64,000 bases of DNA from Fasciola hepatica. Its lineage: Eukaryota > Platyhelminthes > Trematoda > Plagiorchiida > Fasciolidae. The DNA lies in assembly GCA_948099385.1 (NCBI GenBank), contig CANUEZ040000191.1, forward strand, positions 9,238,001 through 9,302,000. The letters run 5' to 3'. A program made the translations under genes and the position numbers. This document shows positions 70 to 63,875 of this stretch, piece by piece. Position 1 is the first letter of the stretch; each line of letters begins with the position of its first letter. The notes below the pieces were generated by a model. That model was not told the DNA's origin and ran no database searches. It saw nothing but the letters and a program-made list of their open reading frames with translations.

Positions 70-117
70 CACTGCTGATGAGTCGAGTCCGAACAAGGAT
101 GAAACAGCTGTACAGTG
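70..117 (+). ncRNA. Type I hammerhead ribozyme, first copy, canonical for the array
   Basis: Self-cleaving RNA. Stem I 5' strand CACTG (70-74); core CTGATGA (75-81, C3 to A9); stem II arm 82-100; GAAA (101-104; G12, A13, A14, then A15.1); stem III ACA (104-106) with TGT (109-111) across a GC loop; cleavage base A17 at 112 (triplet GUA); stem I 3' strand CAGTG (113-117). Stem I is the open helix, so this is type I topology, the form usual in animal satellites and retrozymes. Stem II can form GTC (82-84) with GAT (98-100) and a 13-nt loop, or GTCC (87-90) with GGAT (97-100) if a 5-nt insert is tolerated. Cleavage is predicted between 112 and 113, leaving a 2',3'-cyclic phosphate and a 5'-OH as in the family. 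Activity is inferred, not shown. Confidence 0.88.
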
Positions 118-552
118 AGTGCTTCCATGGATTTCAATGCTCAGTTGAGCGTTCAAGCTGCATGATCAATCATATTATACAAATCTATTCTAATCTAATC
201 TAATATAATCTCTTACTACTAATCAATTGCATGCATAGTAAGGAAGCTGTTTAGGTTTATCATTTGGGAATGCGTTGGTTGTACTTAGGCCCCTACAGAG
301 AAGTCATCCATCATAGGAGTCGATCGATGTGCGCGAAGCTGGTTGTACCCATTCAAATTTGAAGCTAGTTTGGGAAGGGTGCTATATCATGTAGTGTAGA
401 TGTTGTACAAAGCGTTGATAGCCATCCCGGATAGACTTGTGTTGTTAAGTTGTTCCATTCACAATGGTTCAGCGGTTGTTGGAGTCCCCGTGGTTGCTCG
501 GTCGATGTGCACTGCTGATGAGTCGAGTCCGAACAAGGATGAAACAGCTGTA
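113..552 (+). other. Predicted self-cleaved RNA monomer, 440 nt (cleavage site to cleavage site)
   Basis: If the + strand is transcribed through two units, the hammerheads at 70-117 and 510-557 would release the segment from 113 to 552. The product would start with CAGTGAGTGC and end with ACAGCTGTA. Such monomers are the substrate for circularisation in retrozyme and viroid-like cycles. The boundaries follow directly from the hammerhead cleavage rule; existence of the RNA is inferred. Confidence 0.6.
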
Positions 553-1394
553 CAGTGAGTGCTTCCATGGATTTCAATGCTCAGTTGAGCGTTCAAGCTG
601 CATGATCAATCATATTATACAAATCTATTCTAATCTAATCTAATCTATTCTCCTACTACTAATCAATTGCATGCATAGTAAGGAAGCTGTGTAGGTTTAT
701 CATTTGGGAATGCGTTGGTTGTACTTAGGCCCATACAGAGAAGTCATCCATCATAAGAGTCGATCGGTGTGCGCGAAGCTGGTTGTTACCATTGAAATTT
801 GAAGCCAGTTTGGGAAGGGTGATATATCATGTAGTGTAGATGTTGAACAAAGCGTTGATAGCCATCCCGGATAGCCTTGTGTTGTTAAGTTGTTCCATTC
901 ACAATGGTTCACCGGTTGTTGGAGTCCTCGTGGTTGCTCGGTCGATGTGCACTGCTGATGAGTCGAGTCCGAACAAGGATGAAACAGCTGTACGGTGAGT
1001 GCTTCCATGGATTTCAATGCTCAGTTGAGCGTTCAAGCTGCATGATCAATCATATTATACAAATCTATTCTAATCTCTTCTAATCTAATCTAATCTCCTA
1101 CTACTAATCAATTGCATGCATAGTAAGGAAGCTGTGTAGGTTTATCATTTGGGAATGACTTGAGTGTACTTAGGCCCCTACAGGGAAGTCATCCATCATA
1201 GGAGCCGATCGATGTGAGCGAAGCTGGTTGTACCCATTCAAATTTGAAGCTAGTTTGGGAAGGGTGCTATATCATGTAGTGTAGATGTTGTACAAAGCGT
1301 TGATAGCCATCCTCGATAGCCTTGTGTTGTTAAGGTGTTCCATTCACAATGGTTCACCGGTTGTTGGAGTCCCCGTGGTTGCTCGGTCGATGTG

Positions 1395-1442
1395 CACTGC
1401 TGATGAGTCGAGTCCGAACAAGGATGTAACAGCTGTACGGTG
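1395..1442 (+). ncRNA. Hammerhead copy with broken core (GAAA to GTAA), probably inactive
   Basis: The second core strand reads GTAA, changing invariant A13 to U. Stem I 3' strand is CGGTG. The same double variant recurs at 4484, 6254 and 8904, so it is an amplified lineage and not an isolated error. Confidence 0.8.
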
Positions 1443-2274
1443 AGTGCTTCCATGGATTTCAATGCTCAGTTGAGCGTTCAAGCTGCATGATCAATCATAT
1501 TATACAAATCTATTCTAATCTAATCTAATATAATCTCTTACTACTAATCAATTGCATGCATAGTAAGGAAGCTGTTTAGGTTTATCATTTGGGAATGCGT
1601 TGGTTGTACTTCGGCCCCTACAGAGAAGTCATCCATCATAGGAGTCGATCGATGTGCGCGAAGCTGGTTGTTACCATTCAAATTTGAAGCTAGTTTGGGA
1701 AGGGTGCTATATCATGTAGTGTAGATGTTGTACAAAGCGTTGATAGCCATCCCGGATATACTTGTGTTGTTAAGTTGTTCCATTCACAATGGTTCAGCGG
1801 TTGTTGGAATCCCCGTGGTTGCTCGGTCGATGTGCACTGCTGATGAGTCGAGTCCGAACAAGGATGAAACAGCTGTACAGTGAGTGCTTCCATGGATTTC
1901 AATGCTCAGTTGAGCGTTCAAGCTGCATGATCAATCATATTATACAAATCTATTCTAATCTAATCTAATCTATTCTCCTACTACTAATCAATTGCATGCA
2001 TAGTAAGGAAGCTGTGTAGGTTTATCATTTGGGAATGCGTTGGTTGTACTTAGGCCCATACAGAGAAGTCATCCATCATAAGAGTCGATCGGTGTGCGCG
2101 AAGCTGGTTGTTACCATTGAAATTTGAAGCCAGTTTGGGAAGGGTGATATATCATGTAGTGTAAATGTTGAACAAAGCGTTGATAGCCATCCCGGATAGC
2201 CTTGTGTTGTTAAGTTGTTCGATTGACAATGGTTCACCGGTTGTTGGAGTCCCCGTGGTTGCTCGGTCGATGTG

Positions 2275-2322
2275 CACTGCTGATGAGTCGAGTCCGAACA
2301 AGGATGAAACAGCTGCACAGTT
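2275..2322 (+). ncRNA. Hammerhead copy with GCA cleavage triplet, probably inactive
   Basis: The cleavage region reads AGCTGCACAGTT. U16.1 is changed to C, which removes the A15.1-U16.1 pair and the NUH requirement, and the last stem I base is also changed (CAGTT). Confidence 0.75.
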
Positions 2323-3000
2323 AGTGCTTCCATGGATTTCAATGCTCAGTTGAGCGTTCAAGCTGCATGATCAATCATATTATACAAATCTATTCTAATC
2401 TAATCTAATATAATCTCTTACTACTAACCAATTGCATGCATAGTAAGGAAGCTGTTTAGGTTTATCATTTGGGAATGCGTTGGTTGTACTTCGGCCCCTA
2501 CAGAGAAGTCATCCATCATAGGAGTCGATCGGTGTGCGCGAAGCTGGTTGTTACCATTGAAATTTGAAGCCAGTTTGGGAAGGGTGATATATCATGTAGT
2601 GTAAATGTTGAACAAAGCGTTGATAGCCATCCCGGATAGACTTGTGTTGTTCAGTTGTTCGATTCACAATGGTTCAGCGGTTAATGGAGTCCTCGTGGTT
2701 GCTCGGTCGATGTGCACTGCTGATGAGTCGAGTCCGAACAAGGATGAAACAGCTGTACGGTGAGTGCTTCCATGGATTTCAATGCTCAGTTGAGCGTTCA
2801 AGCTGCATGATCAATCATATTATACAAATCTATTCTAATCTCTTCTAATCTAATCTAATCTCCTACTACTAATCAATTGCATGCATAGTAAGGAAGCTGT
2901 GTAGGTTTATCATTTGGGAATGACTTGAGTGTACTTAGGCCCCTACAGGGAAGTCATCCATCATAGGAGCCGATCGATGTGAGCGAAGCTGGTTGTACCC

Positions 3001-3014
3001 ATTCAAATTTGAAG
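3001..3014. repeat. Perfect 12-bp palindrome TTCAAATTTGAA (exemplar)
   Basis: ATTCAAATTTGAAG contains a perfect palindrome. About half of the units carry TTGAAATTTGAA instead, breaking it by one C-to-G change. The two states alternate along the array and serve as a useful unit marker. Confidence 0.8.
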
Positions 3015-4478
3015 CTAGTTTGGGAAGGGTGCTATATCATGTAGTGTAGATGTTGTACAAAGCGTTGATAGCCATCCCGGATAGCCTTGTGTTGTTAAGG
3101 TGTTCCATTCAAAATGGTTCAGCGGTTGTTGGAGTCCCCGTGGTTGCTCGGTCGATGTGCACTGCTGATGAGTCGAGTCCGAACAAGGATGAAACAGCTG
3201 TACAGTGAGTGCTTCCATGGATTTCAATGCTCAGTTGAGCGTTCAAGCTGCATGATCAATCATATTATACAAATCTATTCTAATCTAATATAATATAATC
3301 TCTTACTACTAATCAATTGCATGCATAGTAAGGAAGCTGTTTAGGTTTATCATTTGGGAATGCGTTGGTTGTACTTAGGCCCCTACAGGGAAGTCATCCA
3401 TCATAGGAGTCGATCGGTGTGCGCGAAGCTGGTTGTTACCATTGAAATTTGAAGCCAGTTTGGGAACGGTGCTATATCATGTAGTGTAAATGTTGAACAA
3501 AGCGTTGATAGCCATCCCGGATAGCCTTGTGTTGTTAAGTTGTTCGATTCACAATGGTTCAGCGGTTGTTGGAATCCCCGTGGTTGCTCGGTCGATGTGC
3601 ACTGCTGATGAGTCGAGTCCGAACAAGGATGAAACAGCTGTACGGTGAGTGCTTCCATGGATTTCAATGCTCAGTTGAGCGTTCAAGCTGCATGATCAAT
3701 CATATTATACAAATCTATTCTAATCTAATCTAATCTAATCTCTTACTACTAATCAATTGCATGCATAGTAAGGAAGCTGTTTAGGTTTATCATTTGGGAA
3801 TGCGTTGGTTGTACTTCGGCCCCTACAGAGAAGTCATCCATCATAGGAGTCGATCGATGTGCGCGAAGCTGGTTGTACCCATTCAAATTTGAAGCTAGTT
3901 TGGGAAGGGTGCTATATCATGTAGTGTAGATGTTGTACAAAGCGTTGATAGCCACCCGGATATACTTGTGTTGTTAAGTTGTTCGATTCACAATGGTTCA
4001 GCGGTTGTTGGAATCCCCGTGGTTGCTCGGTCGATGTGCACTGCTGATGAGTCGAGTCCGAACAAGGATGAAACAGCTGTACAGTGAGTGCTTCCATGGA
4101 TTTCAATGCTCAGTTGAGCGTTCAAGCTGCATGATCAATCATATTATACAAATCTATTCTAATCTAATCTAATCTATTCTCCTACTACTAATCAATTGCA
4201 TGCATAGTAAGGAAGCTGTGTAGGTTTATCATTTGGGAATGCGTTGGTTGTACTTAGGCCCATACAGAGAAGTCATCCATCATAAGAGTCGATCGGTGTG
4301 CGCGAAGCTGGTTGTTACCATTGAAATTTGAAGCCAGTTTGGGAAGGGTGATATATCATGTAGTGTAGATGTTGAACAAAGCGTTGATAGCCATCCCGGA
4401 TAGCCTTGTGTTGTTAAGTTGTTCCATTCACAATGGTTCAGCGGTTGTTGGAGTCCCCGTGGTTGCTCGGTCGATGTG

Positions 4479-4526
4479 CACTGCTGATGAGTCGAGTCCG
4501 AACAAGGATGTAACAGCTGTACGGTG
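4479..4526 (+). ncRNA. Hammerhead copy with GTAA core, probably inactive
   Basis: A13-to-U variant with CGGTG stem I, second member of the lineage first seen at 1400. Confidence 0.8.
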
Positions 4527-6248
4527 AGTGCTTCCATGGATTTCAATGCTCAGTTGAGCGTTCAAGCTGCATGATCAATCATATTATACAAATCTATTCT
4601 AATCTAATCTAATATAATCTCTTACTACTAACCAATTGCATGCATAGTAAGGAAGCTGTTTAGGTTTATCATTTGGGAATGCGTTGGTTGTACTTCGGCC
4701 CCTACAGAGAAGTCATCCATCATAGGAGTCGATCGGTGTGCGCGAAGCTGGTTGTTACCATTGAAATTTGAAGCCAGTTTTGGAACGGTATTATATCATG
4801 TAGTGTAAATGTTGAACAAAGCGTTGATAGCCATCCCGGATAGACTTGTGTTGTTCAGTTGTTCGATTCACAATGGTTCAGCGGTTGTTGGAGTCCTCGT
4901 GGTTGCTCGGTCGATGTGCACTGCTGATGAGTCGAGTCCGAACAAGGATGAAACAGCTGTACGGTGAGTGCTTCCATGGATTTCAATGCTCAGTTGAGCG
5001 TTCAAGCTGCATGATCAATCATATTATACAAATCTATTCTAATCTCTTCTAATCTAATCTAATCTCCTACTACTAATCAATTGCATGCATAGTAAGGAAG
5101 CTGTGTAGGTTTATCATTTGGGAATGACTTGAGTGTACTTAGGCCCCTACAGGGAAGTCATCCATCATAGGAGCCGATCGATGTGAGCGAAGCTGGTTGT
5201 ACCCATTCAAATTTGAAGCTAGTTTGGGAAGGGTGCTATATCATGTAGTGTAGATGTTGTACAAAGCGTTGATAGCCATCCCGGATAGCCTTGTGTTGTT
5301 AAGGTGTTCCATTCAAAATGGTTCAGCGGTTGTTGGAGTCCCCGTGGTTGCTCGGTCGATGTGCACTGCTGATGAGTCGAGTCCGAACAAGGATGAAACA
5401 GCTGTACAGTGAGTGCTTCCATGGATTTCAATGCTCAGTTGAGCGTTCAAGCTGCATGATCAATCATATTATACAAATCTATTCTATTCTAATCTAATCT
5501 AATATAATCTCTTACTACTAATCAATTGCATGCATAGTAAGGAAGCTGTTTAGGTTTATCATTTGGGAATGCGTTGGTTGTACTTAGGCCCCTACAGAGA
5601 AGTCATCCATCATAGGAGTCGATCGGTGTGCGCGAAGCTGGTTGTTACCATTGAAATTTGAAGCCAGTTTGGGAAGGGTGCTATATCATGTAGTGTAAAT
5701 GTTGAACAAAGCGTTGATAGCCATCCCGGATAGCCTTGTGTTGTTAAGTTGATCGATTCACAATGGTTCAGCGGTTGTTGGAATCCCCGTGGTTGCTCGG
5801 TCGATGTGCACTGCTGATGAGTCGAGTCCGAACAAGGATGAAACAGCTGTACAGTGAGTGCTTCCATGGATTTCAATGCTCAGTTGAGCGTTCAAGCTGC
5901 ATGATCAATCATATTATACAAATCTATTCTAATCTAATCTAATCTAATCTCCTACTACTAATCAATTGCATGCATAGTAAGTAAGCTGTGTAGGTTTATC
6001 ATTTGGGAATGCGTTGGTTGTACTTAGGCCCCTACAGAGAAGTCATCCATCATAAGAGTCGAACGGTGTGCGCGAAGCTGGTTGTTACCATTGAAATTTG
6101 AAGCCAGTTTGGGAAGGGTGCTATATGATGTAGTGTAGATGTTGAACAAAGCGTTGATAGCCATCCCGGATAGCCTTGTGTTGTTAAGTTGTTCGATTCA
6201 CAATGGTTCACCGGTTGTTGGAGTCCCCGTGGTTGCTCGGTCGATGTG

Positions 6249-6296
6249 CACTGCTGATGAGTCGAGTCCGAACAAGGATGTAACAGCTGTACGGTG
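6249..6296 (+). ncRNA. Hammerhead copy with GTAA core, probably inactive
   Basis: A13-to-U variant with CGGTG stem I, 1770 bp after the 4484 copy, which matches the local 4-unit block period. Confidence 0.8.
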
Positions 6297-8898
6297 AGTG
6301 CTTCCATGGATTTCAATGCTCAGTTGAGCGTTCAAGCTGCATGATCAATCATATTATACAAATCTATTCTAATCTAATCTAATATAATCTCTTACTACTA
6401 ACCAATTGCATGCATAGTAAGGAAGCTGTTTAGGTTTATCATTTGGGAATGCGTTGGTTGTACTTCGGCCCCTACAGAGAAGTCATCCATCATAGGAGTC
6501 GATCGGTGTGCGCGAAGCTGGTTGTTACCATTGAAATTTGAAGCCAGTTTGGGAAGGGTGCTATATCATGTAGTGTAAATGTTGAACAAAGCGTTGATAG
6601 CCATCCCGGATAGACTTGTGTTGTTCAGTTGTTCGATTCACAATGGTTCAGCGGTTGTTGGAGTCCTCGTGGTTGCTCGGTCGATGTGCACTGCTGATGA
6701 GTCGAGTCCGAACAAGGATGAAACAGCTGTACGGTGAGTGCTTCCATGGATTTCAATGCTCAGTTGAGCGTTCAAGCTGCATGATCAATCATATTATACA
6801 AATCTATTCTAATCTCTTCTAATCTAATCTAATCTCCTACTACTAATCAATTGCATGCATAGTAAGGAAGCTGTGTAGGTTTATCATTTGGGAATGACTT
6901 GAGTGTACTTAGGCCCCTACAGGGAAGTCATCCATCATAGGAGCCGATCGATGTGAGCGAAGCTGGTTGTACCCATTCAAATTTGAAGCTAGTTTGGGAA
7001 GGGTGCTATATCATGTAGTGTAGATGTTGAACAAAGCGTTGATAGCCATCCCCGATAGCCTTGTGTTGTTAAGGTGTTCCATTCACAATGGTTCAGCGGT
7101 TGTTGGAGTCCTCGTGGTTGCTCGGTCGATGTGCACTGCTGATGAGTCGAGTCCGAACAAGGATGAAACAGCTGTACGGTGAGTGCTTCCATGGATTTCA
7201 ATGCTCAGTTGAGCGTTCAAGCTGCATGATCAATCATATTATACAAATCTATTCTAATCTAATCTAATATAATCTCTTACTACTAATCAATTGCTTGCAT
7301 AGTAAGGAAGCTGTTTAGGTTTATCATTTGGGAATGCGTTGGTTGTACTTAGGCCCCTACAGGGAAGTCATCCATCATAGGAGTCGATCGGTGTGCGCGA
7401 AGCTGGTTGTTACCATTGAAATTTGAAGCCAGTTTGGGAAGGGTGCTATATCATGTAGTGTAGATGTTGAACAAAGCGTTGATAGCCATCCCGGATAGCC
7501 TTGTGTTGTAAAGTTGTTAGATTCACAATGGATCAGCGGTTGTTGGAGTCCCCGTGGTTGCTCGGTCGATGTGCACTGCTGATGAGTCGAGTCCGAACAA
7601 GGATGAAACAGCTGTACGGTGAGTGCTTCCATGGATTTCAATGCTCAGTTGAGCGTTCAAGCTGCATGATCAATCATATTATACAAATCTATTCTAATCT
7701 AATCTAATCTAATCTCTTACTACTAATCAATTGCATGCATAGTAGGGGAGCTGTGTAGGTTTATCATTTGGGAATGACTTGAGTGTACTTAGGCCCCTAC
7801 AGGGAAGTCATCCATCATAGGAGTCGATCGGTGTGCGCGAAGCTGGTTGTACCCATTCAAATTTGAAGCTAGTTTGGGAAGGGTGCTATATCATGTTGTG
7901 TAGATGTTGTACAAAGCGTTGATAGCCATCCCGGATAGCCTTGTGTTGTTAAGGTGTTCCATTCACAATGGTTCAGCGGTTGTTGGAGTCCTCGTGGTTG
8001 CTCGGTCGATGTGCACTGCTGATGAGTCGAGTCCGAACAAGGATGAAACAGCTGTACGGTGAGTGCTTCCATGGATTTCAATGCTCAGTTGAGCGTTCAA
8101 GCTGCATGATCAATCATATTATACAAATCTATTCTAATCTAATCTAATCTAATCTAATTTCCTACTACTAATCAATTGCATGCATAGTAAGGAAGCTGTG
8201 TAGGTTTATCATTTGAGAATGCGTTGGTTGTACTTAGGCCCCTACAGAGAAGTCATCCATCATAGGAGTCGATCGGTGTGCGCGAAGCTTGTTGTTACCA
8301 TTGAAATTTGAAGCCAGTTTGGAAACGGTGCTATATCATGTAGTGTAGATGTTGAACAAAGCGTTGATAGCCATCCCGGATAGCCTTGTGTTGTTAAGTT
8401 GTTCGATTCACAATGGTTCAGCGGTTGTTGGAATCCCCGTGGTTGCTCGGTCGATGTGCACTGCTGATGAGTCGAGTCCGAACAAGGATGAAACAGCTGT
8501 ACAGTGAGTGCTTCCATGGATTTCAATGCTCAGTTGAGCGTTCAAGCTGCATGATCAATCATATTATACAAATCTATTCTAATCTTATCAAATCTAATCT
8601 CCTACTACTAATCAATTGCATGCATAGTAAGGAAGCTGTGTAGGTTTATCATTTGGGAATGCGTTGGTTGTACTTAGGCAACTACAGGGAAGTCATTCAT
8701 CATATGAGTCGATCGATGTGCGCGAAGCTGGTTGTTACCATTCAAATTTGAAGCCAGTTTGGGAAGGGTGCTATATCATGTAGTGTAAATGTTGAACAAA
8801 GCGTTGATAGCCATCCCGGATAGACTTGTGTTGTTCAGTTGTTCCATTCACAATGGTTCACCGGTTGTTGGAGTCCCCGTGGTTGCTCGGTCGATGTG

Positions 8899-8946
8899 CA
8901 CTGCTGATGAGTCGAGTCCGAACAAGGATGTAACAGCTGTACGGTG
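8899..8946 (+). ncRNA. Hammerhead copy with GTAA core, probably inactive
   Basis: Last member of the A13-to-U lineage. Its unit also shares the GTTGTTCAGTTG segment (near 8832) with the block copies near 2647, 4851 and 6621. Confidence 0.8.
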
Positions 8947-10658
8947 AGTGCTTCCATGGATTTCAATGCTCAGTTGAGCGTTCAAGCTGCATGATCAATC
9001 ATATTATACAAATCTATTCTAATCTAATCTAATATAATCTCTTACTACTAATCAATTGCTTGCATAGTAAGGAAGCTGTTTAGGTTTATCATTTGGGAAT
9101 GCGTTGGTTGTACTTCGGCCCCTACAGAGAAGTCATCCATCATAGGAGTCGATCGGTGTGCGCGAAGCTGGTTGTTACCATTGAAATTTGAAGCCAGTTT
9201 GGGAAGGGTGCTATATCATGTAGTGTAAATGTTGAACAAAGCGTTGATAGCCATCCCGGATAGCCTTGTGTTGTTAAGTTGTTCGATTCACAATGGTTCA
9301 GCGGTTGTTGGAGTCCTCGTGGTTGCTCGGTCGATGTGCACTGCTGATGAGTCGAGTCCGAACAAGGATGAAACAGCTGTACGGTGAGTGCTTCCATGGA
9401 TTTCAATGCTCAGTTGAGCGTTCAAGTTGCATGATCAATCATATTATACAAATCTTTTCTAATCTCTTCTAATCTAATCTCCTACTACTAATCAATTGCA
9501 TGCATAGTAAGGAAGCTTTGTAGGTTTATCATTTGGGAATGACTTGAGTGTACTTAGGCCCCTACAGGGAAGTCATCCATCATAGGAGTCGATCGGTGTG
9601 CGCGAAGCTGGTTGTTACCATTGAAATTTGAAGCCAGTTTGGGAAGGGTGCTATATCATGTAGTGTAGATGTTGAACAAAGCGTTGATAGCCATCCCGGA
9701 TAGCCTTGTGTTGTTAAGTTGTTCGATTCACAATGGTTCAGCGGTTGTTGGAGTCCCCGTGGTTGCTCGGTCGATGTGCACTGCTGATGAGTCGAGTCCG
9801 AACAAGGATGAAACAGCTGTACGGTGAGTGCTTCCATGGATTTCAATGCTCAGTTGAGCGTTCAAGCTGCATGATCAATCATATTATACAAATCTATTCT
9901 AAACTAATCTAATATAATCTCTTACTACTAATCAATTGCATGCATAGTAAGGAAGCTGTGTAGGTTTATCATTTGGGAATGACTTGAGTGTACTTTGGCC
10001 CGTACAGATAAGTCATCCATCATAGGATTTGATCGGTTTTCGCGAAGCTGGTTGTTACCATTCAAATTTGAAGCCAGTTTGGGAAGGGTGCTATATCATG
10101 TAGTGTAGATGTTGAACAAAGCGTTGATAGCCATCCCGGATAGCCTTGTGTTGTTAGGTTGTTAGATTCACAATGGTTCAGCGGTTGTTGGAGTCCCCGT
10201 GGTTGCTCGGTCGATGTGCACTGCTGATGAGTCGAGTCCGAACAAGGATGAAACAGCTGTACAGTGAGTGCTTCCATGGATTTCAATGCTCAGTTGAGCG
10301 TTCAAGCTACATGATTAATCATATTATACAAATCTATTCTAATCTAATCAAATATAATCTCCTACTACTCATCAATTGCATGCATAGTAAGGAAGCTGTG
10401 TAGGTTAATCATTTGGGAATGCGTTGGTTGTACTTAGGCCCCTACAGAGAAGTCATCCATCATAGGAGTCGATCGGTGTGCGCGAAGCTGGTTGTTACTA
10501 TTCAAATTTGAAGCCAATATGGGAAAGGTGCTATATCATGTAGTGTAAATATTAAACAAAGCGTTGATAGCCATCCCGGATAGCCTTGTGTTGTAAAGTT
10601 GTTAGATTCACAATGGTTCAGCAGTTGTTGGAGTCCCCGTGGTTGCTCGGTCGATGTG

Positions 10659-10706
10659 CACTGCTGATGAGTTGAGTCCGTACAAGGATGAAACAGCTGT
10701 ACAGTG
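10659..10706 (+). ncRNA. Hammerhead copy with weakened stem II
   Basis: Stem II begins GTTGAGTCC and the loop has GTACAAGG, so the first-register stem would be GUU/GAU with two G-U wobbles. Core residues and the GUA triplet are intact. Confidence 0.7.
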
Positions 10707-51100: not shown

Positions 51101-51114
51101 TCGGTGTGCGCAAG

Positions 51115-51539: not shown

Positions 51540-51640
51540 GCGTTCAAGCTGCATGATCATTCATATTATACAAACGTTTTCTAAGCTAATTTCGGAATTT
51601 TAAAAATTGCATACATATTAGGAAGCTGTGTAGGTTTATC
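51540..51640 (+). repeat. Diverged tract region in a degenerate unit
   Basis: After CATATTATACAAA the (TCTAA)n tract is replaced by CGTTTTCTAAGCTAATTTCGG and an A/T-rich stretch, then GCATACATATTAGGAAGCTG resumes the satellite. This is the most diverged 60 bp I found, next to the ribozyme-less unit. Confidence 0.7.
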
Positions 51641-52084: not shown

Positions 52085-52115
52085 TTGGGAATGCGTTGGT
52101 TGTTACCATTCAAAT
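52085..52115 (+). repeat. 64-bp deletion junction
   Basis: GCGTTGGTTGTTACC fuses the middle block to the later GGTTGTTACC. In the preceding unit the two TGGTTGT copies (51655 and 51719) are exactly 64 bp apart, and the unit spacing here is 376 bp, 64 less than 440. Confidence 0.88.
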
Positions 52116-52479
52116 TTGAAGCCAGTTTTGGAAGTGTGCTACATGATGTAGTGTAGATGTTGAACAAAGCGTTGATAGCCATCCCGGATAGCCTTGTGTT
52201 GTTAAGTTGTTCGATTCACAATGGTTCAGCGGTTGTTGGAATCCCCGTGGTTGCTCGGTCAATGCGCACTGCTGATGAGTCGAGTCCGAACAAGGATGAA
52301 ACAGCTGTACAGTGAGTGCTTCCATGGATTTCAATGCTCAGTTGAGCGTTCAAGCTGCATGATCAATCATAATATACAAATCTATTCTAATCTAATCTAA
52401 TCTAAACTTATCTCCTACTACTAATCAATTGCATGCATAGTAAGGAGGCTGTGTAGATTTTTCATTTAGGAATGCGTTG

Positions 52480-54270
52480 GTTGTACTTAGGCCCCTACAG
52501 AGAAGTGATCCATCATAAGAGTCGATCAGTGTGCGCAAAGCTGGTTGTCACCATTCAAATTTGAAGCCAATTTAGGAAGGGTGCTATGTTATGTAGTGTA
52601 CATTTCGAACAAAGCGTTGATAGCGATCCCGAATAGCCTTGTGTTGTTTAGTTGTTCGATTCACAATGGTTCAGCGGTTGTTGGAATCCCCGTGGTTGCT
52701 CGGTCGATGTGCACTGCTGATGAGTCGAGTCCGAACAAGGATGAAACATCTGTACAATGAGTGCTTCCATGAATTTCAATGCTCAGTTGATTGTTCAAGC
52801 TGCATGATCAATCATATTATACAAATCTATTCTAATCTAATCTAATCTAATCTAATCTCCTACTACTAATCAATTGCATTCATAGTAAGGAAGGTGTGTA
52901 GGTTTATCTTTTGGGAATGCGTTGGTTGTACTTAGGCCCAAACAGAGAAGTCATCCATCATAGGAGTCGATCGGTGTGCGCGGAGCTGGTTGTTACCATT
53001 CAAATTTGAAGCCACTTTTGGAAGTGTGCTACATCATTTAGTGTATATGTTGAACAAAGCGTTGATAGCCATCCCGGATAGCCTTGTGTTGTTAAGTTGT
53101 TCGATTCACAATGGTTCAGCGGTTGTTGGAATCCCCGTGGTTGCTCGGTCGATGTGCACTGCTGATGAGTCGAGTCCGAACAAGGATGAAACAGCTGTAC
53201 AGTGAGTGCTTCCATGGATTTCAATGCCCAGTTGAGCGTTCAAGCTGCATGATCAACCATAATATACGAATCTATTCTAATCTAATCTAGTCTTATCTCC
53301 TACTACTAATCAATTGCATGCATAGTAAGGAAGCTGTGTAGGTTAATCATTTGGGAATGCGTTGGTTGTACTTAGGCCCCTACAGAGAAGTGATCCATCA
53401 TAAGAGTCGATCAGTGTGCGCAAAGCTGGTTGTCACCATTCAAATTTGAAGCCAATTTAGGAAGGGTGCTATGTTATGTAGTGTACATTTCGAACAAAGC
53501 GTTGATAGCGATCCCGGATAGCCTTGTGTTGTTTAGTTGTTCGATTCACAATGGTTCAGCGGTTGTTGGAATCCCCGTGGTTGCTCGGTCGATGTGCACT
53601 GCTGATGAGTCGAGTCCGAACAAGGATGAAACATCTGTACAATGAGTGCTTCCATGAATTTCAATGCTCAGTTGATTGTTCAAGCTGCATGATCAATCAT
53701 ATTATACAAATCTATTCTAATCTAATCTAATCTAATCTAATCTCCTACTACTAATCAATTGCATGCATAGTAAGGAAGGTGTGTAGGTTTATCTTTTGGG
53801 AATGCGTTGGTTGTACTTAGGCCCAAACAGAGAAGTCATCCATCATAGGAGTCGATCGGTGTGCGCGGAGCTGGTTGTTACCATTCAAATTTGAAGCCAC
53901 TTTTGGAAGTGTGCTACATCATTTAGTGTATATGTTGAACAAAGCGTTGATAGCCATCCCGGATAGCCTTGTGTTGTTAAGTTGTTCGATTCACAATGGT
54001 TCAGCGGTTGTTGGAATCCCCGTGGTTGCTCGGTCGATGTGCACTGCTGATGAGTCGAGTCCGAACAAGGATGAAACAGCTGTACAGTGAGTGCTTCCAT
54101 GGATTTCAATGCCCAGTTGAGCGTTCAAGCTGCATGATCAACCATAATATACGAATCTATTCTAATCTAATCTAGTCTTATCTCCTACTACTAATCAATT
54201 GCATGCATAGTAAGGAAGCTGTGTAGGTTAATCATTTGGGAATGCGTTGGTTGTACTTAGGCCCCTACAG
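52480..54270 (+). repeat. 2-unit tandem duplication, period 885 bp
   Basis: Units 52717 and 53162 match 53602 and 54047. Shared markers are GTACATTTCGAAC, TGTACAATGAGTG, GCCCAAACAGAG and GCGCGGAGCTGG. One visible difference is GAATAGCC/GGATAGCC at about 52632/53517. Confidence 0.85.
52712..52759 (+). ncRNA. Hammerhead copy with ACATCTGT stem III and CAATG stem I
   Basis: A C-A mismatch is predicted at the third stem I pair. An 885-bp duplicate at 53602 has the same two changes. Confidence 0.72.
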
Positions 54271-56001
54271 AGAAGTCATCCATCATAAAAGTCGATCGGT
54301 GTGCGCGAAGCTGGTTGTTACCATTCAAATTTGAAGCCAGTTTGGGAAGGGTGCTCTAAATGATGTAGTGTAGATGTTGAACAAAGCGTTGATAGCGATC
54401 CCGGATAGACTTGTGTTGTTAAGTTGTTCGATTCACAATGGTTCACCGGTTGTTGGAATCCCCGTGGTTGCTCGGTCGATGTGCACTGCTGATGAGTCGA
54501 GTCCGAACAAGGATGAAACATCTGTACAGTGAGTGCTTCCATGGATTTCAATGCTCAGTTGAGCGTTCAAGCTGCATGATCAATCGTATTATACCATTCC
54601 ATTCTAATCTAATCTAAACTAATCTCCTACTACTAATCAATTGCATGCATAGTAAGGAAGCTGTGTAGGTTTATCATTTGAGAATGAGTTGGTTGTACTT
54701 AGGCTCCTACAGAGAAGTCATCCATCATAGGAGTCGATCGGTGTGCGCGAAGCTGGTTGTTACCATTGAAATTTGAAGCCAGTTTGGGAAGTGTGCTATA
54801 CATGATGTAGTGTAGATGTTGAACAAAGCGTTGATAGCGATCCCGGGAAGCCTTGTGTTGTTAAGTTGTTCGATTCACAATGGTTCACCGGTGGTTGGAA
54901 TCCCCGTGGTTGCTCGGTCGATGTGCACTGCTGATGAGTCGAGTCCGAACAGGGATGAAACAGCTGTACAGTGAGTGCTTCCATGGATTTCAATGCTCAG
55001 TTGAGCGTTCAAGCTGCATGATCAATCGTATTATACCATTCCATTCTAATCTAATCTAAACTAATCTCCTACTACTAATCAATTGCATGCATAGTAAGGA
55101 AGCTGTGTGAGTTTTACATTTGGGAATGCGTTGGTTGTACTTAGGCCCCTACAGAGAAGTGATCCATCATAGGAGTCGATCGGTGTGCGCGAAGCTGGTT
55201 GTTACCATTGAAATTTGAAGCCAGTTTGGGAAGTGTGCTATATATGATGTAGTGTAGATGTTGAACAAAGCGTTGATAGCCATCTCGGATTGCCTTGTGT
55301 TGTTAAGTTGTTCGATTCACAATGGTTCAGCGGTTGTTGGATTCCCCGTGGTTGCTCGGTCGATGTGCACTGCTGATGAGTCGAGTCCGAACAAGGATGA
55401 AACAGCTGTACAGTGAGTGCTTCCATGGATTTCAATGCTCAGTTGATTGTTCAAGCTGCATGATCAATCATATAATACAAATCTATTCTAATCTAATCAA
55501 ATCTAATCTAATCTCCTACTACTAATCAATTGCATGCATAGTAAGGAAGCTGTGTGAGTTTTACATTTGGGAATGCGTTGGTTGTACTTAGGCCCCTACA
55601 GAGAAGTCATCCATCATAGGAGTCGATCGGTGTGCGCGAAGCTGGTTGTTACCATTCAAATTTGAAGCCAGTTTGGGAAGTGTGCTATTTGATGTAGTGT
55701 AGATGTTGAACAAAGCGTTGATAGCCATCTCGGATTGCCTTGTGTTGTTAAGTTGTTCGATTCACAATGGTTCAGCGGTTGTTGGATTCCCCGTGGTTGC
55801 TCGGTCGATGTGCACTGCTGATGAGTCGAGTCCGAACAAGGATGAAACAGCTGTACAGTGAGTGCTTCCATGGATTTCAATGCTCAGTTGATTGTTCAAG
55901 CTGCATGATCAATCATATAATACAAATCTATTCTAATCTAATCTAATCTAATCTAATCTCCTACTACTAATCAATTGCATGCATAGTAAGGAAGCTGTGT
56001 G

Positions 56002-56008
56002 TTTTTTT
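56002..56008 (+). terminator. T7 run, possible Pol III terminator (exemplar)
   Basis: GTGTGTTTTTTTCATTT replaces the usual GTGTAGGTTTATCATTT about 170 bp after a ribozyme cleavage site. T7 runs also occur at 45271, 57339, 58226, 58671 and 63128, and T5-T6 forms elsewhere. It would matter only if the units are Pol III transcribed, which is unproven. Confidence 0.2.
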
Positions 56009-56257
56009 CATTTGGGAATGCGTTGGTTGTACTTAGGCCCCTACAGAGAAGTGATCCATCATAGGAGTCGATCGGTGTGCGCGAAGCTGGTTGTTACCAT
56101 TCAAATTTGAAGCCAGTTTGGGAAGTGTGCTATATGATGTAGTGTAGATGTTGAACAAAGCGATGATAGCCATCCCGGATAGCCTTGTGTTGTTAAGTTG
56201 TTCGATTCACAATGGTTCAGCGGTTGTTGGATTCCCCGTGGTTGCTCGGTCGATGTG

Positions 56258-56305
56258 CACTGCTGATGAGTCGAGTCCGAACAAGAATGAAACAGCCGTT
56301 CAGTG
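56258..56305 (+). ncRNA. Hammerhead copy with GUU cleavage triplet and stem II/III changes
   Basis: The 3' arm reads AAGAAT, weakening both stem II registers. Stem III is ACAGCCGT and the cleavage triplet is GUU. The triplet satisfies NUH but the combination is likely weak. Confidence 0.7.
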
Positions 56306-56704
56306 AGTGCTTCCATGGATTTCAATGCTCAGTTGATTGTTCAAGCTGCATGATCAATCATATAATACAAATCTATTCTAATCTAATATAATCTAATCTA
56401 ATCTCCTACTACTAATCAATTGCATGCATAGTAAGGAATCTGTGTGAGTTTTTCATTTGGGAATGCGTTGGTTGTACTTAGGCCCCTACAGAGAAGTGGT
56501 CCATCATAGGAGTCGATCGGAGTGCGCGAAGCTGGTTGTTACCATTCAAATTTGAAGCCATTTTAGGAAGAGAGGTCGATATGATGTAGTGTAGATGTTG
56601 AACAAAGCGTTGATAGCGATCCCGAATAGCCTTGTGTTGTTAAGTTGTTCGATTCACAATGGTTCACCGGTTGTTGGAATCCCCGTGGTTGCTCGGTCGA
56701 TGTG

Positions 56705-56752
56705 CACTGCTGATGAGTCGAGTCCGAACAAGGATGAAACAGCTGTTCAGTG
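56705..56752 (+). ncRNA. Hammerhead copy with GUU cleavage triplet
   Basis: The cleavage base A17 is U (CTGTTCAG). This fits NUH and is otherwise canonical. Shared with 56263, 58042, 59819 and 62057, all in the last 8 kb of the window. Confidence 0.78.
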
Positions 56753-58036
56753 AGTGCTTCCATGGATTTCTATGCTCAGTTGAGCGTTTAAGCTGCATGA
56801 TCAATCATATTATACAAATCTATTATAATCTAATCTAATCTAATCTAATCTCCTACTACTAATCAATTCCATGCATAGTAAGGAAGCTGTGTGAGTTTTA
56901 CATTTGGGAATGCGTTGGTTGTACTTAGGCCCCTACAGAGAAGTGATCCATCATAGGAGTCGATCGGTGTGCGCGAAGCTGGTTGTTACCATTGAAATTT
57001 GAAGCCAGTTTGGGAAGGGTGCTATATGATGTAGTGTAGATGTTGAACAAAGCGTTGATAGCCATCTCGGATTGCCTTGTGTTGTTAAGTTGTTCGATTC
57101 ACAATGGTTCAGCGGTTGTTGGATTCCCCGTGGTTGCTCGGTCGATGTGCACTGCTGATGAGTCGAGTCCGAACAAGGATGAAACAGCTGTACAGTGAGT
57201 GCTTCCATGGATTTCAATGCTCAGTTGATTGTTCAAGCTGCATGATCAATCATATAATACAAATCTATTCTAATCTAATCTAATCTAATCTAATCTCCTA
57301 CTACTAATCAATTGCATGCATGATAAGGAAGCTGTGTGTTTTTTTCATTTGGGAATGCGTTGGTTGTACTTAGGCCCCTACAGATAATTCATCCATCATA
57401 GGAGTCGATCGGAGTGCGCGAAGCTGGTTGTTACCATTGAAATTTGAAGCCATTTTAGGAAGAGAGGTCGATATGATGTAGTGTAGATGTTGAACAAAGC
57501 GTTGATAGCGATCCCGAATAGCCTTGTGTTGTTAAGTTGTTCGATTCACAATGGTTCAGCGGTTGTTGGAATCCCCGTGGTTGCTCGGTCAATGCGCACT
57601 GCTGATGAGTCGAGTCCGAACAAGGATGAAACAGCTGTACAGTGAGTGCTTCCATGGATTTCAATGCTCAGTTGAGCGTTCAAGCTGCATGATCAATCAT
57701 ATTATACAAATCTATTCTAATCTAATCTAATCTAATCTCCTACTACTAATCAATTGCATGCATAGTAAGGAAGCTGTGTGAGTTTTACATTAGGGAATGC
57801 GTTGGTTGTACTTAGGCCCCAAAAGAGAAGTGATCCATCATAGGAGTCGATCGGTGTGCGCGAAGCTGGATGTTACCATTCAAATTTGAAGCCAGTTTGG
57901 GAAGTGTGCTATATGATGTAGTGTAGATGTTGAACAAAGCGTTGATAGCGATCCCGGATAGCCTTGTGTTGTTAAGTTGTTCGATTCACAATGGTTCACC
58001 GGTTGTTGGATTCCCCGTGGTTGCTCGGTCGATGTG

Positions 58037-58084
58037 CACTGCTGATGAGTCGAGTCCGAACAAGGATGAAACAGCTGTTCAGTG
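58037..58084 (+). ncRNA. Hammerhead copy with GUU cleavage triplet
   Basis: CTGTTCAG in place of CTGTACAG; core intact. Confidence 0.78.
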
Positions 58085-58175
58085 AGTGCTTCCATGGATT
58101 TCAATGCTCAGTTGATTGTTCAAGCTGCATGATCAATCATATAATACAAATCTATTCTAATCTAATCAAATCTAA

Positions 58176-59065
58176 TCTAATCTCCTACTACTAATCAATT
58201 GCATGCATAGTAAGGAAGCTGTGTGTTTTTTTCATTTGGGAATGCGTTGGTTGTACTTAGGCCCCTACAGAGAAGTGATCCATCATAGGAGTCGATCGGA
58301 GTGCGCGAAGCTGGTTGTTACCATTCAAATTTGAAGCCAGTTTGGGAAGTGTGCTATATGATGTAGTGTAGATGTTGAACAAAGCGTTGATAGCGATCCC
58401 GGATAGCCTTGTGTTGTTAAGTTGTTCGATTCACAATGGTTCAGCGGTTGTTGGATTCCCCGTGGTTGCTCGGTTGATGTGCACTGCTGATGAGTCGAGT
58501 CCGAACAAGGATGAAACATCTGTACAGTGAGTGCTTCCATGGATTTCAATGCTCAGTTGAGCGTTCAAGCTGCATGATCAATCATATAATACAAATCTTT
58601 TCTAATCTAATCTAATCTAATCTAATCTCCTACTACTAATCAATTGCATGCATAGTAAGGAAGCTGTGTGTTTTTTTCATTTGGGAATGCGTTGGTTGTA
58701 CTTAGGCCCCTACAGAGAAGTGATCCATCATAGGAGTCGATCGGAGTGCGCGAAGCTGGTTGTTACCATTCAAATTTGAAGCCAGTTTGGGAAGTGTGCT
58801 ATATGATGTAGTGTAGATGTTGAACAAAGCGTTGATAGCGATCCCGGATAGCCTTGTGTTGTTAAGTTGTTCGATTCACAATGGTTCAGCGGTTGTTGGA
58901 TTCCCCGTGGTTGCTCGGTTGATGTGCACTGCTGATGAGTCGAGTCCGAACAAGGATGAAACATCTGTACAGTGAGTGCTTCCATGGATTTCAATGCTCA
59001 GTTGAGCGTTCAAGCTGCATGATCAATCATATAATACAAATCTTTTCTAATCTAATCTAATCTAA
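58176..59065 (+). repeat. Single-unit duplication, period 445 bp, apparently identical
   Basis: Units with ribozymes at 58487 and 58932 share CGGTTGATG, ACATCTG, the T7 run and AATCTTTTC. I saw no difference across the repeat unit, making this the youngest-looking event, or an assembly duplication. Confidence 0.8.
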
Positions 59066-59813
59066 TCTAATCTCCTATTAATAATCAATTGCATGCATAG
59101 TAGGGAAGCTGTGTAGGTTTATCATTTGGGAATGCGTTGGTTGTACTTAGGCCCCTACAGAGAAGTCATCCATCATAGGAGTCGATCGGAGTGCGCGAAG
59201 CTGGTTGTTACCATTCAAATTTGAAGCCATTTTAGGAAGAGAGGTCGATATGATGTAGTGTAGATGTTGAACAAAGCGTTGATAGCGATCCCGAATAGCC
59301 TTGTGTTGTTAAGTTGTTCGATTCACAATGGTTCAGCGGTTGTTGGAATCCCCGTGGTTGCTCGGTCAATGCGCACTGCTGATGAGTCGAGTCCGAACAA
59401 GGATGAAACAGCTGTACAGTGAGTGCTTCCATGGATTTCAATGCTCAGTTGAGCGTTCAAGCTGCATGATCAATCATATAATACAAATCTATTCTAATCT
59501 AATCTAATCTAATCTCCTACTACTAATCAATTGCATGCATAGTAAGGAAGCTGTGTGAGTTTTACATTAGGGAATGCGTTGGTTGTACTTAGGCCCCTAC
59601 AGAGAAGTGATCCATCATAGGAGTCGATCGGTGTGCGCGAAGCTGGTTGTTACCATTCAAATTTGAAGCCAGTTTGGGAAGTGTGCTATATGATGTAGTG
59701 TAGATGTTGAACAAAGCGTTGATAGCGATCCCGGATAGCCTTGTGTTGTTAAGTTGTTCGATTCACAATGGTTCAGCGGTTGTTGGATTCCCCGTGGTTG
59801 CTCGGTCGATGTG

Positions 59814-59861
59814 CACTGCTGATGAGTCGAGTCCGAACAAGGATGAAACAGCTGTTCAGTG
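59814..59861 (+). ncRNA. Hammerhead copy with GUU cleavage triplet
   Basis: Same A17-to-U change, 1777 bp after the 58042 copy, which suggests a 4-unit duplication. Confidence 0.78.
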
Positions 59862-61599
59862 AGTGCTTCCATGGATTTCAATGCTCAGTTGATTGTTCAA
59901 GCTGCATGATCAATCATATAATACAAATCTATTCTAATCTAATCAAATCTAATCTAATCTCCTACTACTAATCAATTCCATGCATAGTAAGGAAGCTGTG
60001 TAGGTTTATCATTTGGGAATGCGTTGGTTGTACTTAGGCCCCTACAGAGAAGTGATCCATCATAGGAGTCGTTCGGAGTGCGCGAAGCTGGTTGTTACCA
60101 TTCAAATTTGAAGCCAGTTTGGGAAGTGTGCTATATGATGTAGTGTAGATGTTGAACAAAGCGTTGATAGCGATCCCGGATAGCCTTGTGTTGTTAAGTT
60201 GTTCGATTCACAATGGTTCAGCGGTTGTTGGATTCCCCGTGGTTGCTCGGTCGATGTGCACTGCTGATGAGTCGAGTCCGAACAAGGATGAAACAGCTGT
60301 ACAGTGAGTGCTTCCATGGATTTCAGTGCTCAGTTGAGCGTTCAAGCTGCATGATCAATCATATAATACAAATCTTTTCTAATCTAATCTAATCTAATCT
60401 AATCTCCTATTACTAATCAATTGCATGCATAGTAAGGAAGCTGTGTAGGTTTATCATTTGGGAATGCGTTGGTTGTACTTAGGCCCCTACAGAGAAGTCA
60501 TCCATCATAGGAGTCGATCGGAGTGCGCGAAGCTGGTTGTTACCATTCAAATTTGAAGCCATTTTAGGAAGAGAGGTCGATATGATGTAGTGTAGATGTT
60601 GAACAAAGCGTTGATAGCGATCCCGAATAGCCTTGTGTTGTTAAGTTGTTCGATTCACAATGGTTCAGCGGTTGTTGGAATCCCCGTGGTTGCTCGGTCG
60701 ATGTGCACTGCTGATGAGTCGAGTCCGAACAAGGATGAAACAGCTGTACAGTGAGTGCTTCCATGGATTTCAATGCTCAGTTGAGCGTTCAAGCTGCATG
60801 ATCAATCATATTATACAAATCTATTCTAATCTAATCTAATCTAATCTAATCTCCTACTACTAATCAATTGCATGCATAGTAAGGAAGCTGTGTGAGATTT
60901 ACATTAGGGAATGCGTTGGTTGTACTTAGGCCCCTACAGAGAAGTGATCCATCATAGGAGTCGATCGGTGTGCGCGAAGCTGGTTGTTACCATTCAAATT
61001 TGAAGCCATTTTAGGAAGAGAGGTCGATATGATGTAGTGTAGATGTTGAACAAAGCGTTGATAGCGATCCCGGATAGCCTTGTGTTGTTAAGTTGTTCGA
61101 TTCACAATGGTTCAGCGGTTGTTGGATTCCCCGTGGTTGCTCGGTAGATGTGCACTGCTGATGAGTCGAGTCCGAACAAGGATGAAACAGCTGTACAGTG
61201 AGTGCTTCCATGGATTTCAATGATCAGTTGAGCGTTCAAGCTGCATGATCAATCATATAATACAAATCTATTCTAATCTAATCTAATCTAATCTAATCTC
61301 CTACTACTAATCAATTGCATGCATAGTAAGGAAGCTGTGTAGGTTTATCATTTGGGAATGCGTTGGTTGTACTTAGGCCCCTACAGAGAAGTGATCCATC
61401 ATAGGAGTCGATCGGAGTGCGCGAAGCTGGTTGTTACCATTGAAATATGAAGCCATTTTAGGAAGAGAGGTCGATATGATGTAATGTAGATGTTGAACAA
61501 AGCGTTGATAGCGATCCCGAATAGCCTTGTGTTGTTAAGTTGTTCGATTCACAATGGTTCAGCGGTTGTTGGAATCCCCGTGGTTGCTCGGTCGATGTG

Positions 61600-61647
61600 C
61601 ACTGCTGATGAGTCGAGTCCGAACAAGGATGAAACAGCAGTACAGTG
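61600..61647 (+). ncRNA. Hammerhead copy with stem III mismatch
   Basis: Stem III reads ACAGCAGT, replacing one A-U pair by A-A, so only two stem III pairs remain. Core and GUA are intact. Confidence 0.72.
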
Positions 61648-62051
61648 AGTGCTTCCATGGATTTCAATGCTCAGTTGAGCGTTCAAGCTGCATGATCAAT
61701 CATATTATACAAATCTAATCTAATCTAATCTAATCTAATCTAATCTAATCTCCTACTACTAATCAATTGCATGCATAGTAAGGAAGCTGTGTGAGTTTTA
61801 CATTAGGGAATGCGTTGGTTGTACTTAGGCCCCAAAAGAGAAGTGATCCATCATAGGAGTCGATCGGTGTGCGCGAAGCTGGTTGTTACCATTCAAATTT
61901 GAAGCCAGTTTGGGGAGTGTGCTATACATGATGTAGTGTAGATGTTGAACAAAGCGTTGATAGCCATCCCGGATAGCCTTGTGTTGTTAAGTTGTTCGAT
62001 TCACAATGGTTCAGCGGTTGTTGGATTCCCCGTGGTTGCTCGGTCGATGTG

Positions 62052-62099
62052 CACTGCTGATGAGTCGAGTCCGAACAAGGATGAAACAGCTGTTCAGTG
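62052..62099 (+). ncRNA. Hammerhead copy with GUU cleavage triplet
   Basis: Last of the five GUU copies in the window; core and stems otherwise consensus. Confidence 0.78.
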
Positions 62100-63827
62100 A
62101 GTGCTTCCATGGATTTCAATGCTCAGTTGATTGTTCAAGCTGCATGATCAATCATATAATACAAATCTATTCTAATCTAATCTAATCTAATCTAATCTCC
62201 TACTACTAATCAATTGCATGCATAGTAAGGAAGCTGTGTAGGTTTATCATTTGGGAATGCGTTGGTTGTACTTAGGCCCCTACAGAGAAGTCATCCATCA
62301 TAGGAGTCGATCGGAGTGCGCGAAGCTGGTTGTTACCATTGAAATTTGAAGCCATTTTAGGAAGAGAGGTCGATATGATGTAGTGTAGATATTGAACAAA
62401 GCGTTGATAGCGATCCCGAATAGCCTTGTGTTGTTAAGTTGTTCGATTCACAATGGTTCAGCGGTTGTTGGAATCCCCGTGGTTGCTCGGTCAATGCGCA
62501 CTGCTGATGAGTCGAGTCCGAACAAGGATGAAACAGCTGTACAGTGAGTGCTTCCATGGATTTCAATGCTCAGTTGAGCGTTCAAGCTGCTTGATCAATC
62601 ATATTATACAAATCCATTCTAATCTATTCTAATATAATCTCCTTCTACTAATCAATTGCATGCATAGTAAGGAAGCTGTGTGAGTTTTACATTTGGGAAT
62701 GCGTTGGTTGTACTTAGGCCCCTACAGAGAAGTGATCCATCATAGGAGTCGATCGGTGTGCGCGAAGCTGGTTGTTACCATTCAAATTTGAAGCCAGTTT
62801 GGGAAGTGTGCTATATGAGGTAGTGTAGATGTTGAACAAAGCGTTGATAGCGATCCCGGATAGCCTTGTGTTGTTAAGTTGTTCGATTCACAATGGTTCA
62901 GCGGTTGTTGGATTCCCCGTGGTTGCTCGGTCGATGTGCACTGCTGATGAGTCGAGTCCGAACAAGGATGAAACAGCTGTACAGTGAGTGCTTCCATGGA
63001 TTTCAATGCTCAGTTGAGCGTTCAAGCTGCATGATCAATCATATAATACAAATCTATTCTTATCTAATCTAATCTAATCTAATCTCCTACTACTAATCAA
63101 TTGCATGCATAGTAAGGAAGCTGTGTGTTTTTTTCATTTGGGAATGCGTTGGTTGTACTTAGGCCTCTACAGAGAAGTGATCCATCATAGGAGTCGATCG
63201 GAGTGCGCGAAGCTGTTTGTTACCATTGAAATTTGAAGCCATTTTAGGAAGAGAGGTCGATATGATGTAGTGTAGATGTTGAACAAAGCGTTGATAGCGA
63301 TCCCGAATAGCCTTGTGTTGTTGAGTTGTTCGATTCACAATGGTTCAGCGGTTGTTGGAAACCCCGTGGTTGCTCGGTCAATGCGCACTGCTGATGAGTC
63401 GAGTCCGAACAAGGATGAAACAGCTGTACAGTGAGTGCCTCCATGGATTTCAATGCTCAGTTGAGCGTTCAAGCTGCATGATCAATCATATTATACAAAT
63501 CTATTCTAATCTAATCTAATCTAATCTCCTACTACTAATCAATTGCATGCATAGTAAGGAAGCTGTGTGAGTTTTACATTTGGGAATGCGTTGGTTGTAC
63601 TTAGGCCCCTACAGAGAAGTGATCCATCATAGGTGTCGATCGGTGTGCGCGAAGCTGGTTGTTACCATTCAAATTTGAAGCCATTTTAGGAAGAGAGGTC
63701 GATATGATGTAGTGTAGATGTTGAACAAAGCGTTGATAGCGATCCCGAATAGCCTTGTGTTGTTAAGTTGTTCGATTCACAATGGTTCAGCGGTTGTTGG
63801 ATTCCCCGTGGTTGCTCGGTCGATGTG

Positions 63828-63875
63828 CACTGCTGATGAGTCGAGTCCGAACAAGGATGAAACAGCTGTACTGTG
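63828..63875 (+). ncRNA. Last hammerhead copy, with a CTGTG stem I strand
   Basis: The 3' stem I strand is CTGTG, a U-U mismatch at the second pair. The other elements are consensus. Confidence 0.72.

Follow-up and report, generated by a model that had tools for sequence, protein, structure and literature searches.

The stretch analysed here (hereafter the window) comprises the 64,000 nucleotides at positions 9238001-9302000 of contig CANUEZ040000191.1 (C191), within the 1.5-Gb assembly of the trematode Fasciola hepatica, and is filled by a tandem satellite whose ~440-bp units carry a segment for which a derivation from a hammerhead ribozyme is well supported. With a probability of about 0.8, we regard this array as the descendant of a short interspersed nuclear element (SINE) with a hammerhead, which was amplified and whose ribozyme became compromised. 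The satellite is kin to elements scattered in the same genome, from which it differs by two short duplications and by an altered head of transfer RNA (tRNA) likeness; two copies of intermediate type lie outside the known arrays, and a sister satellite family carries a ribozyme that, by its letters, is dead. The direction of descent, the mode of array formation and the loss of activity are what we infer from these relationships.

The ancestor would have been a short retroelement that combined a tRNA-like head with a type I hammerhead, similar to the SMalpha SINE or to the retrozymes without long terminal repeats (non-LTR retrozymes). In the scattered element, as deduced from this class, the ribozyme would cleave multimeric transcripts to RNAs of unit length. 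One lineage would have gained a GAGTC duplication and then an AGTG duplication, and this doubly duplicated lineage would have been amplified into arrays, presumably by unequal exchange. The resulting array ribozyme would be compromised, with its core letters kept and a stem II either of 3 bp or shifted, with 5 extra nucleotides in the core. Single array units would then cleave weakly or not at all, dimers being the likeliest active form.

Scattered relatives and a sister satellite

A genome-wide search with the hammerhead covariance model RF00163, in which 74 of 288,504 candidates were scored, listed 61 places, 37 of them over the cut-off, and none of the places listed fell on C191 or on C205, a second contig with the satellite. 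Since the same model gave matches in 11 of 14 control genomes, none of them over the cut-off, only the places above it were used. Ten 1-kb loci centred on such matches were taken (five from the top six by score, plus five more); nine of them resemble the satellite unit, with 75-87% identity in the longer matches among those listed (L041, L044, L045, L046 and L048), and the tenth, L040, is a separate family. The above-cut-off hammerheads in the nine unit-related loci score 35-40 bits and lack both duplications of the array. Altogether, RF00163 exceeds the cut-off 16 times, at 35-40 bits, in 12 loci picked for such matches, which amounts to 13 distinct places because L046 lies inside L049 and L045 inside L050. 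As an exact string, the canonical core occurs 40 times in the genome, in scattered places, as compared with 3,773 occurrences of the duplicated core. Decayed scattered copies also exist (a plus-strand arm in L049 and a 17.5-bit arm in L048), and the invariance of the core among the scattered copies was not used as evidence, as these copies had been chosen by their core pattern.

By its sequence, the scattered element is built like a hammerhead SINE with a tRNA head. The ribozyme is immediately preceded, on its 5′ side, by a tRNA-like stretch, which scores 31.2 bits in L041, over the tRNA cut-off of 29, and stays below it in L043, L045, L046, L047 and L048 (20.6-26.8 bits, E 0.03-1.7). The alignment of the scattered elements makes visible two stretches of this head that we take to be similar to the A and B boxes of RNA polymerase III, and the head of the array, at 429..500 of the window, differs from the scattered elements in both box-like parts. 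No tRNA match was found in positions 1-4000 of the window up to E 10, and a tRNA gene scan of positions 1-3000 found none. Direct repeats of 12 and 13 bp, read by eye, surround two pairs of satellite-like copies in L049 (ACTAACTGAATT and CGAATTCACATGC), and an automatic scan for flanking repeats in 11 loci returned plausible ones only in L042 (10 bp) and L048 (9 bp). Head-to-head inverted pairs, whose transcripts would form long hairpins, are present in six of the nine satellite-related loci (L039, L041, L044, L045, L046 and L048), the other three holding single copies. Matches to microRNA precursors in L041, L042, L044 and L046 stayed below the cut-offs and were interpreted as long inverted repeats.

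The two pairs in L049 also bear on another origin, namely a derivation of the unit from a terminal repeat of Penelope-like elements, which are known to carry hammerheads. These pairs, of 648 bp each, are 99.5% identical, with starts 7.08 kb apart, and enclose (L049:2446-5239) weak plus-strand matches to a reverse transcriptase (14 bits) and to GIY-YIG (18.8 bits), both under the Pfam cut-off. However, each pair is edged by its own 12- or 13-bp direct repeat, so that they look like two separate insertions, and on this ground a Penelope terminal repeat was rejected for this single examined locus. Moreover, L050 (5 kb) holds a pair with no frame longer than 135 residues, and the tRNA-like head speaks for a SINE-like element. 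A Penelope origin of the unit is, in our view, improbable. A 336-residue frame on the minus strand was also noticed between the L049 pairs, GIY-YIG-like by eye and with no Pfam family match.

The separate family of L040 (positions 465-509 of that locus) is a second hammerhead of different sequence, with 39.5 bits, preceded by a stretch that we regard as B-box-like; no tRNA match was found in this locus up to E 5. In stem I, two base pairs have both partners changed between L040 and the remaining copies, a result reached by 8 of 500 shuffles and drawn from rows that were found with a structure model and are biased towards pairing. Such differences speak against a chance hammerhead likeness spread by copying, as do the unit-related scattered elements over the cut-off; chance would be in line with the lack of matches at the gathering cut-off in the window, but we give it almost no credence.

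A sister satellite of 423-425 bp, ~70% identical to the 440-bp family, was found on C191 at 8.40 and 8.50 Mb (L009 and L010). Its segments carry G5>C in 47 of 47 cases and G12>C in 45 of 47, with CUCAUGA replacing CUGAUGA, and stem I is mismatched; Rfam gave no match to 10 kb of this satellite with an E-value of 10 or less. The 440-bp and the 424-bp families group together in a midpoint-rooted tree of 36 rows (92/94, below the level of the program's star), and their clade is nested among the scattered elements provided that L040 branches off first. The two intermediates, L051 and L052, have the GAGTC duplication and lack AGTG. For the array itself, 544 units from 25 loci were aligned, leaving out units beyond 400-480 bp, L001-L006 and L008 (in or next to the window), L009, L010 and L029; four units of L007 recur in L022, which leaves 540 distinct units, and none of these has a gap at either duplication. 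Since L051 and L052 carry GAGTC alone and no array unit is gapped at either place, the GAGTC duplication most likely preceded AGTG.

Extent and anatomy of the array

The original prediction of a tandem satellite of 145 copies, with the hammerhead elements on one strand and the catalytic letters retained in most copies, was borne out. Tandem Repeats Finder (TRF) reports a single array at 1-64000, with a period of 440, 144.6 copies and 92% matches, and the units run head to tail through the whole window. An edit-distance scan with a 66-nt reference found 145 hammerhead-like segments, all on the plus strand, 143 of them within 3 edits of the reference and 79 identical to it; on the minus strand, the closest match is at least 25 edits away. 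The strings CACTGCTGATGA, CTGATGA, GAAACAGCTGTA and GAAACAGCTGTACAGTG occur 138, 143, 125 and 112 times on the plus strand, respectively, and not once on the minus strand of the window. Segments are spaced by 440 or 445 bp in 100 of the 144 intervals, and two intervals (614 and 376 bp) were dropped, giving 142 full-length units. All core letters and an allowed base at the cleavage site are present in 135 of these units, and in 126 of them the assumed pairing of stems I, II (3 bp) and III is complete as well. A search for higher-order repeats gave merely weak best offsets, of 2-3 units. Close to the 614-bp unit, at 51096-51440, a 174-bp segment stands in tandem duplicate.

The features of the array and of its first segment are given in Table 1. 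The stem II region would admit two pairings: GUC/GAU, with 3 bp, a 13-nt loop and a continuous core, or GUCC/GGAU, with 4 bp, a 6-nt loop and 5 extra nucleotides in the core. The region holds the GAGTC duplication, which the original prediction had overlooked, and a stem II string without it was not found in the window.

Table 1. Features of the satellite array, in positions of the window
Feature	Position	Strand	Basis
Array part	1..64000	+	~440-bp units, 145 hammerhead-like segments
Hammerhead-derived segment, first unit (anatomy common to other units)	61..126	+	Sequence, edit scan, model alignment
Stem I 5′ arm CACTG	70..74	+	Sequence; pairs counted in unit alignment
Core CUGAUGA (C3-A9)	75..81	+	Sequence; model alignment
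5-nt tandem duplication GAGTC-GAGTC	80..89	+	Single copy in scattered canonical relatives
Stem II region	82..100	+	Two alternative pairings (model alignment, folding)
Core GAA (G12-A14) and A15.1	101..104	+	Model alignment
Stem III ACAGCUGU, self-complementary	104..111	+	Sequence
Predicted cleavage site UA/C, between 112 and 113	112..113	+	Position in hammerhead model
Stem I 3′ arm CAGTG	113..117	+	Pair count in unit alignment
4-nt tandem duplication AGTG-AGTG, beside stem I	114..121	+	Not in aligned scattered relatives, nor in L051/L052
(AATCT)n-like tract after ribozyme part, near 3′ end of putative ancestral element	181..212	+	TRF, sequence, alignment
Degenerate tRNA-like head, directly 5′ of second unit's ribozyme segment	429..500	+	Alignment; tRNA model match in relative L041

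Beyond the window, the 31-nt array-type core was searched as an exact string, with 123 occurrences in the window and 1,563 forward and 2,210 reverse ones making up the 3,773 of the genome, where the reversed control pattern has no match. Among the first 100 of these places listed, one is on C112, one on C179 and the others on C191. From the exact-core share of the window (123/145), and assuming that nearly all genome matches lie in arrays, the genome would hold roughly 4,400 array units, or 1.9-2.0 Mb. In sampled stretches, the 440-bp family was met between 8.60 and 9.81 Mb on C191 and between 1.91 and 2.88 Mb on C205. The sampled C191 array runs on the plus strand to 8.65 Mb, on the minus strand from 8.67 to ~9.08 Mb, and then on the plus strand again, and these switches suggest that large inversions took place or that the assembly was joined there. 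Neither the genome_contigs nor the viral_contigs collection, from which near records may be left out, yielded a match to the exact array core.

Some of the sampled array stretches contain retroelement insertions. One retrotransposon inserted in the satellite (L024:2163-6557, minus strand, and L012:2774-7476) has in L024 a single open frame of 1,465 residues with protease, reverse transcriptase, RNase H and integrase domains, and we take it to be Ty3-like. Another retroelement adjoins satellite DNA (L018:6652-10000 and L007:1-1415), with DUF1759 in L018 and an aspartic protease match slightly below its cut-off, and it is possibly Pao/BEL-like. Elsewhere in the assembly, COX1 is repeated every 14.2-14.9 kb in several contigs (C429, C468, C471 and others), as if mitochondrial genomes had been left as tandem copies. 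Read with the flatworm code, this COX1 shares 94% identity with that of Fasciola gigantica over 94% of its length, and 84% with that of Fasciolopsis buskii, in keeping with a fasciolid fluke as the host.

State of the array ribozyme

A significant covariance match, a check on which the type I hammerhead had originally been staked, is lacking in the window: at the curated cut-off, cmscan gave no Rfam match in the 64 kb, and the best RF00163 score is 19.1 bits, against a cut-off of 34. With an E-value threshold, the model matched seven of nine segments in positions 1-4000, in the right register, four with 19.1 bits and three with 16.5; the E-values of 0.58 and 4.1 over 4,227 families correspond, by arithmetic, to ~1e-4 and ~1e-3 for a single family. 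A small nucleolar RNA model, sR28, overlaps three of the seven segments with 14.8 bits, far under its own cut-off. The loss of RF00163 score is due to the stem II region (CTGAT-GAGTC-GAGTCC-GAACAA-GGAT-GAAAC). Hammerhead ancestry of the segment is supported by the register of these matches and by the relatives over the cut-off at the homologous place, and the original reading thus holds in part.

Folding in the bare model makes the shifted GUCC/GGAU pairing (4 bp) 4.6 kcal/mol better than GUC/GAU, and the minimum-energy folds of the bare array segment are other than a hammerhead. Since the same is true for ten of ten intact scattered hammerheads, such misfolding was dropped as a test of activity. 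The circular fold of the array unit is no stabler than those of shuffled sequences (34 of 60 as stable or stabler). Some of the core insertions tested in other work reduced hammerhead activity (PMC3088659). By the RF00163 score, the odds lie against a working hammerhead in every array unit; the activity in the array is probably reduced, with about one chance in three that the 440-bp unit would show easily measurable cleavage. The self-complementary stem III, ACAGCUGU, would permit the formation of array-RNA dimers.

Alternatively, the array ribozyme could be a working variant, in which the loop 2, enlarged to 13 nt, and the AGTG insertion would touch each other as the loops of extended hammerheads do, and purifying selection would maintain the cutting of the RNA into units, a possibility that we consider doubtful. 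The segment is indeed little variable, as over the 544 units a 56-nt hammerhead window has 1.4% non-consensus letters vs 4.5% elsewhere, with 2 of 385 windows lower, a result that does not change without L007. In the analysed 64 kb alone, 9 of 384 windows are less variable, and for loci taken one by one this number rises to as many as 184 of 440 (median 25). The array consensus has no core substitution, the conserved core (CUGANGA ... GAAA, A15.1-U16.1, H17) is complete in 486 of the 544 units from the 25 loci (483 of 540 once the four duplicate L007 units are removed), CUGAUGA-stem II-GAAA would be continuous if stem II is GUC/GAU, and the substitution divergence from intact elements, in a biased sample, is low.

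Against a working variant stand, besides the score of the model, the pair C2.3-G1.3, broken in 9% of the 544 units, and A13, altered in 18 of them. No standard pair has both sides changed in these units, although the low divergence within the family leaves small power to detect compensatory change. Moreover, the segment is little variable in the dead sister too (45 units from two stretches; 1.4% vs 3.9%, 17 of 377 windows lower), and between both satellites the segment is 68% identical vs 70% for the whole alignment. Letter conservation was rejected as proof of function, because the dead 424-bp family is similarly quiet and there is no compensatory change; in addition, copies within a single satellite family do not count as independent. 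The evidence for constraint on the array hammerhead, as read from its letters, is real but undecided. A bolder version, in which the array hammerhead would be a remodelled and selected ribozyme, whose two insertions, one in loop 2 and its partner beside stem I, common to thousands of tandem copies, would keep the satellite RNA self-processing, as a retroelement ribozyme taken over by a chromosomal, possibly centromeric, array, seems to us rather unlikely.

Several observations nevertheless weigh against descent from a hammerhead SINE followed by a compromised ribozyme, the explanation that we prefer. In four of the nine scattered loci other than L041 (L039, L040, L042 and L044), a tRNA match is lacking up to E 5. 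Another tree, which has 38 rows and includes L051, L052 and a different sample of satellite units, does not resolve the joint clade, and its bootstrap is unsettled. The GAGTC variant may still have moved, as its two copies lie outside arrays. A stem II of two pairs is frequent in natural hammerheads (PMC3088659). In each of the 24 loci with 7 or more units, the variability of the hammerhead segment falls below the average for the unit, and the segment has 4.5 distinct variants per position vs 9.6, with 1 of 440 windows lower; core and stems have 3.8 variants per position vs 5.6 in the loops (permutation p ~0.05), and the comparison of the core alone with the remainder of the segment gives p 0.14. 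Finally, between the 440-bp family and 12 scattered copies, substitutions amount to 6% in the hammerhead as against 19.5% for the tRNA head, 26% for the upstream part and 12% for the downstream part, a comparison without insertions, L040, the divergent L039 plus-strand arm and repeat places, which leans towards a quiet hammerhead because the copies were picked for an intact core. The hammerhead of the 424-bp family differs from the scattered copies by 21% substitutions.

Comparison with known hammerhead elements

Among the literature matches listed, none describes this satellite in its title or at the start of its abstract, subscription literature being mostly outside the search. The closest system in host, SMalpha of Schistosoma mansoni, was compared with the fluke element by its published description, and Sjalpha of S. 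japonicum is reportedly its counterpart. SMalpha is described as a SINE-like retrotransposon that bears a type I hammerhead, and shares with the fluke element the trematode host, a similar length (W36.2_W001, 335 bp) and satellite-like repeats (PMC8490949); it belongs to another host family and its hammerhead is reported as active, whereas the array ribozyme has two duplications. Metazoan non-LTR retrozymes also have 150-450 bp, less than 50% GC, type I hammerheads, and both tandem and scattered copies, and their target-site duplications of more than 4 bp may have a counterpart in the direct repeats seen at some fluke loci (PMC7229834), but the array hammerhead of the fluke is disrupted, and its arrays reach megabase size.

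Among satellites, pDo500 of Dolichopoda cave crickets has an embedded hammerhead that is less variable than the rest (PMC2837043), in another host and with another unit length, and with compensatory changes, of which none was found in the fluke array. The satellite hammerheads of newt and axolotl have a similarly short stem III with a palindromic loop, and are weak as monomers and better as dimers (PMC7229834); besides the amphibian host, Amex2 differs by a U-U mismatch in helix II, while the fluke array has a duplication.

In any case, conserved hammerhead letters in a satellite are no proof of function. A single genome seems to keep the path from a SINE with 40 canonical cores, through one insertion, to an array with 3,773 cores, beside a dead sister array, which makes it a testable question whether hammerhead satellites require ribozyme activity for their formation or upkeep, or only inherit it. 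The fluke case joins the known kind of hammerhead SINEs and satellites, and is notable for its series of intact, once inserted, twice inserted and dead forms.

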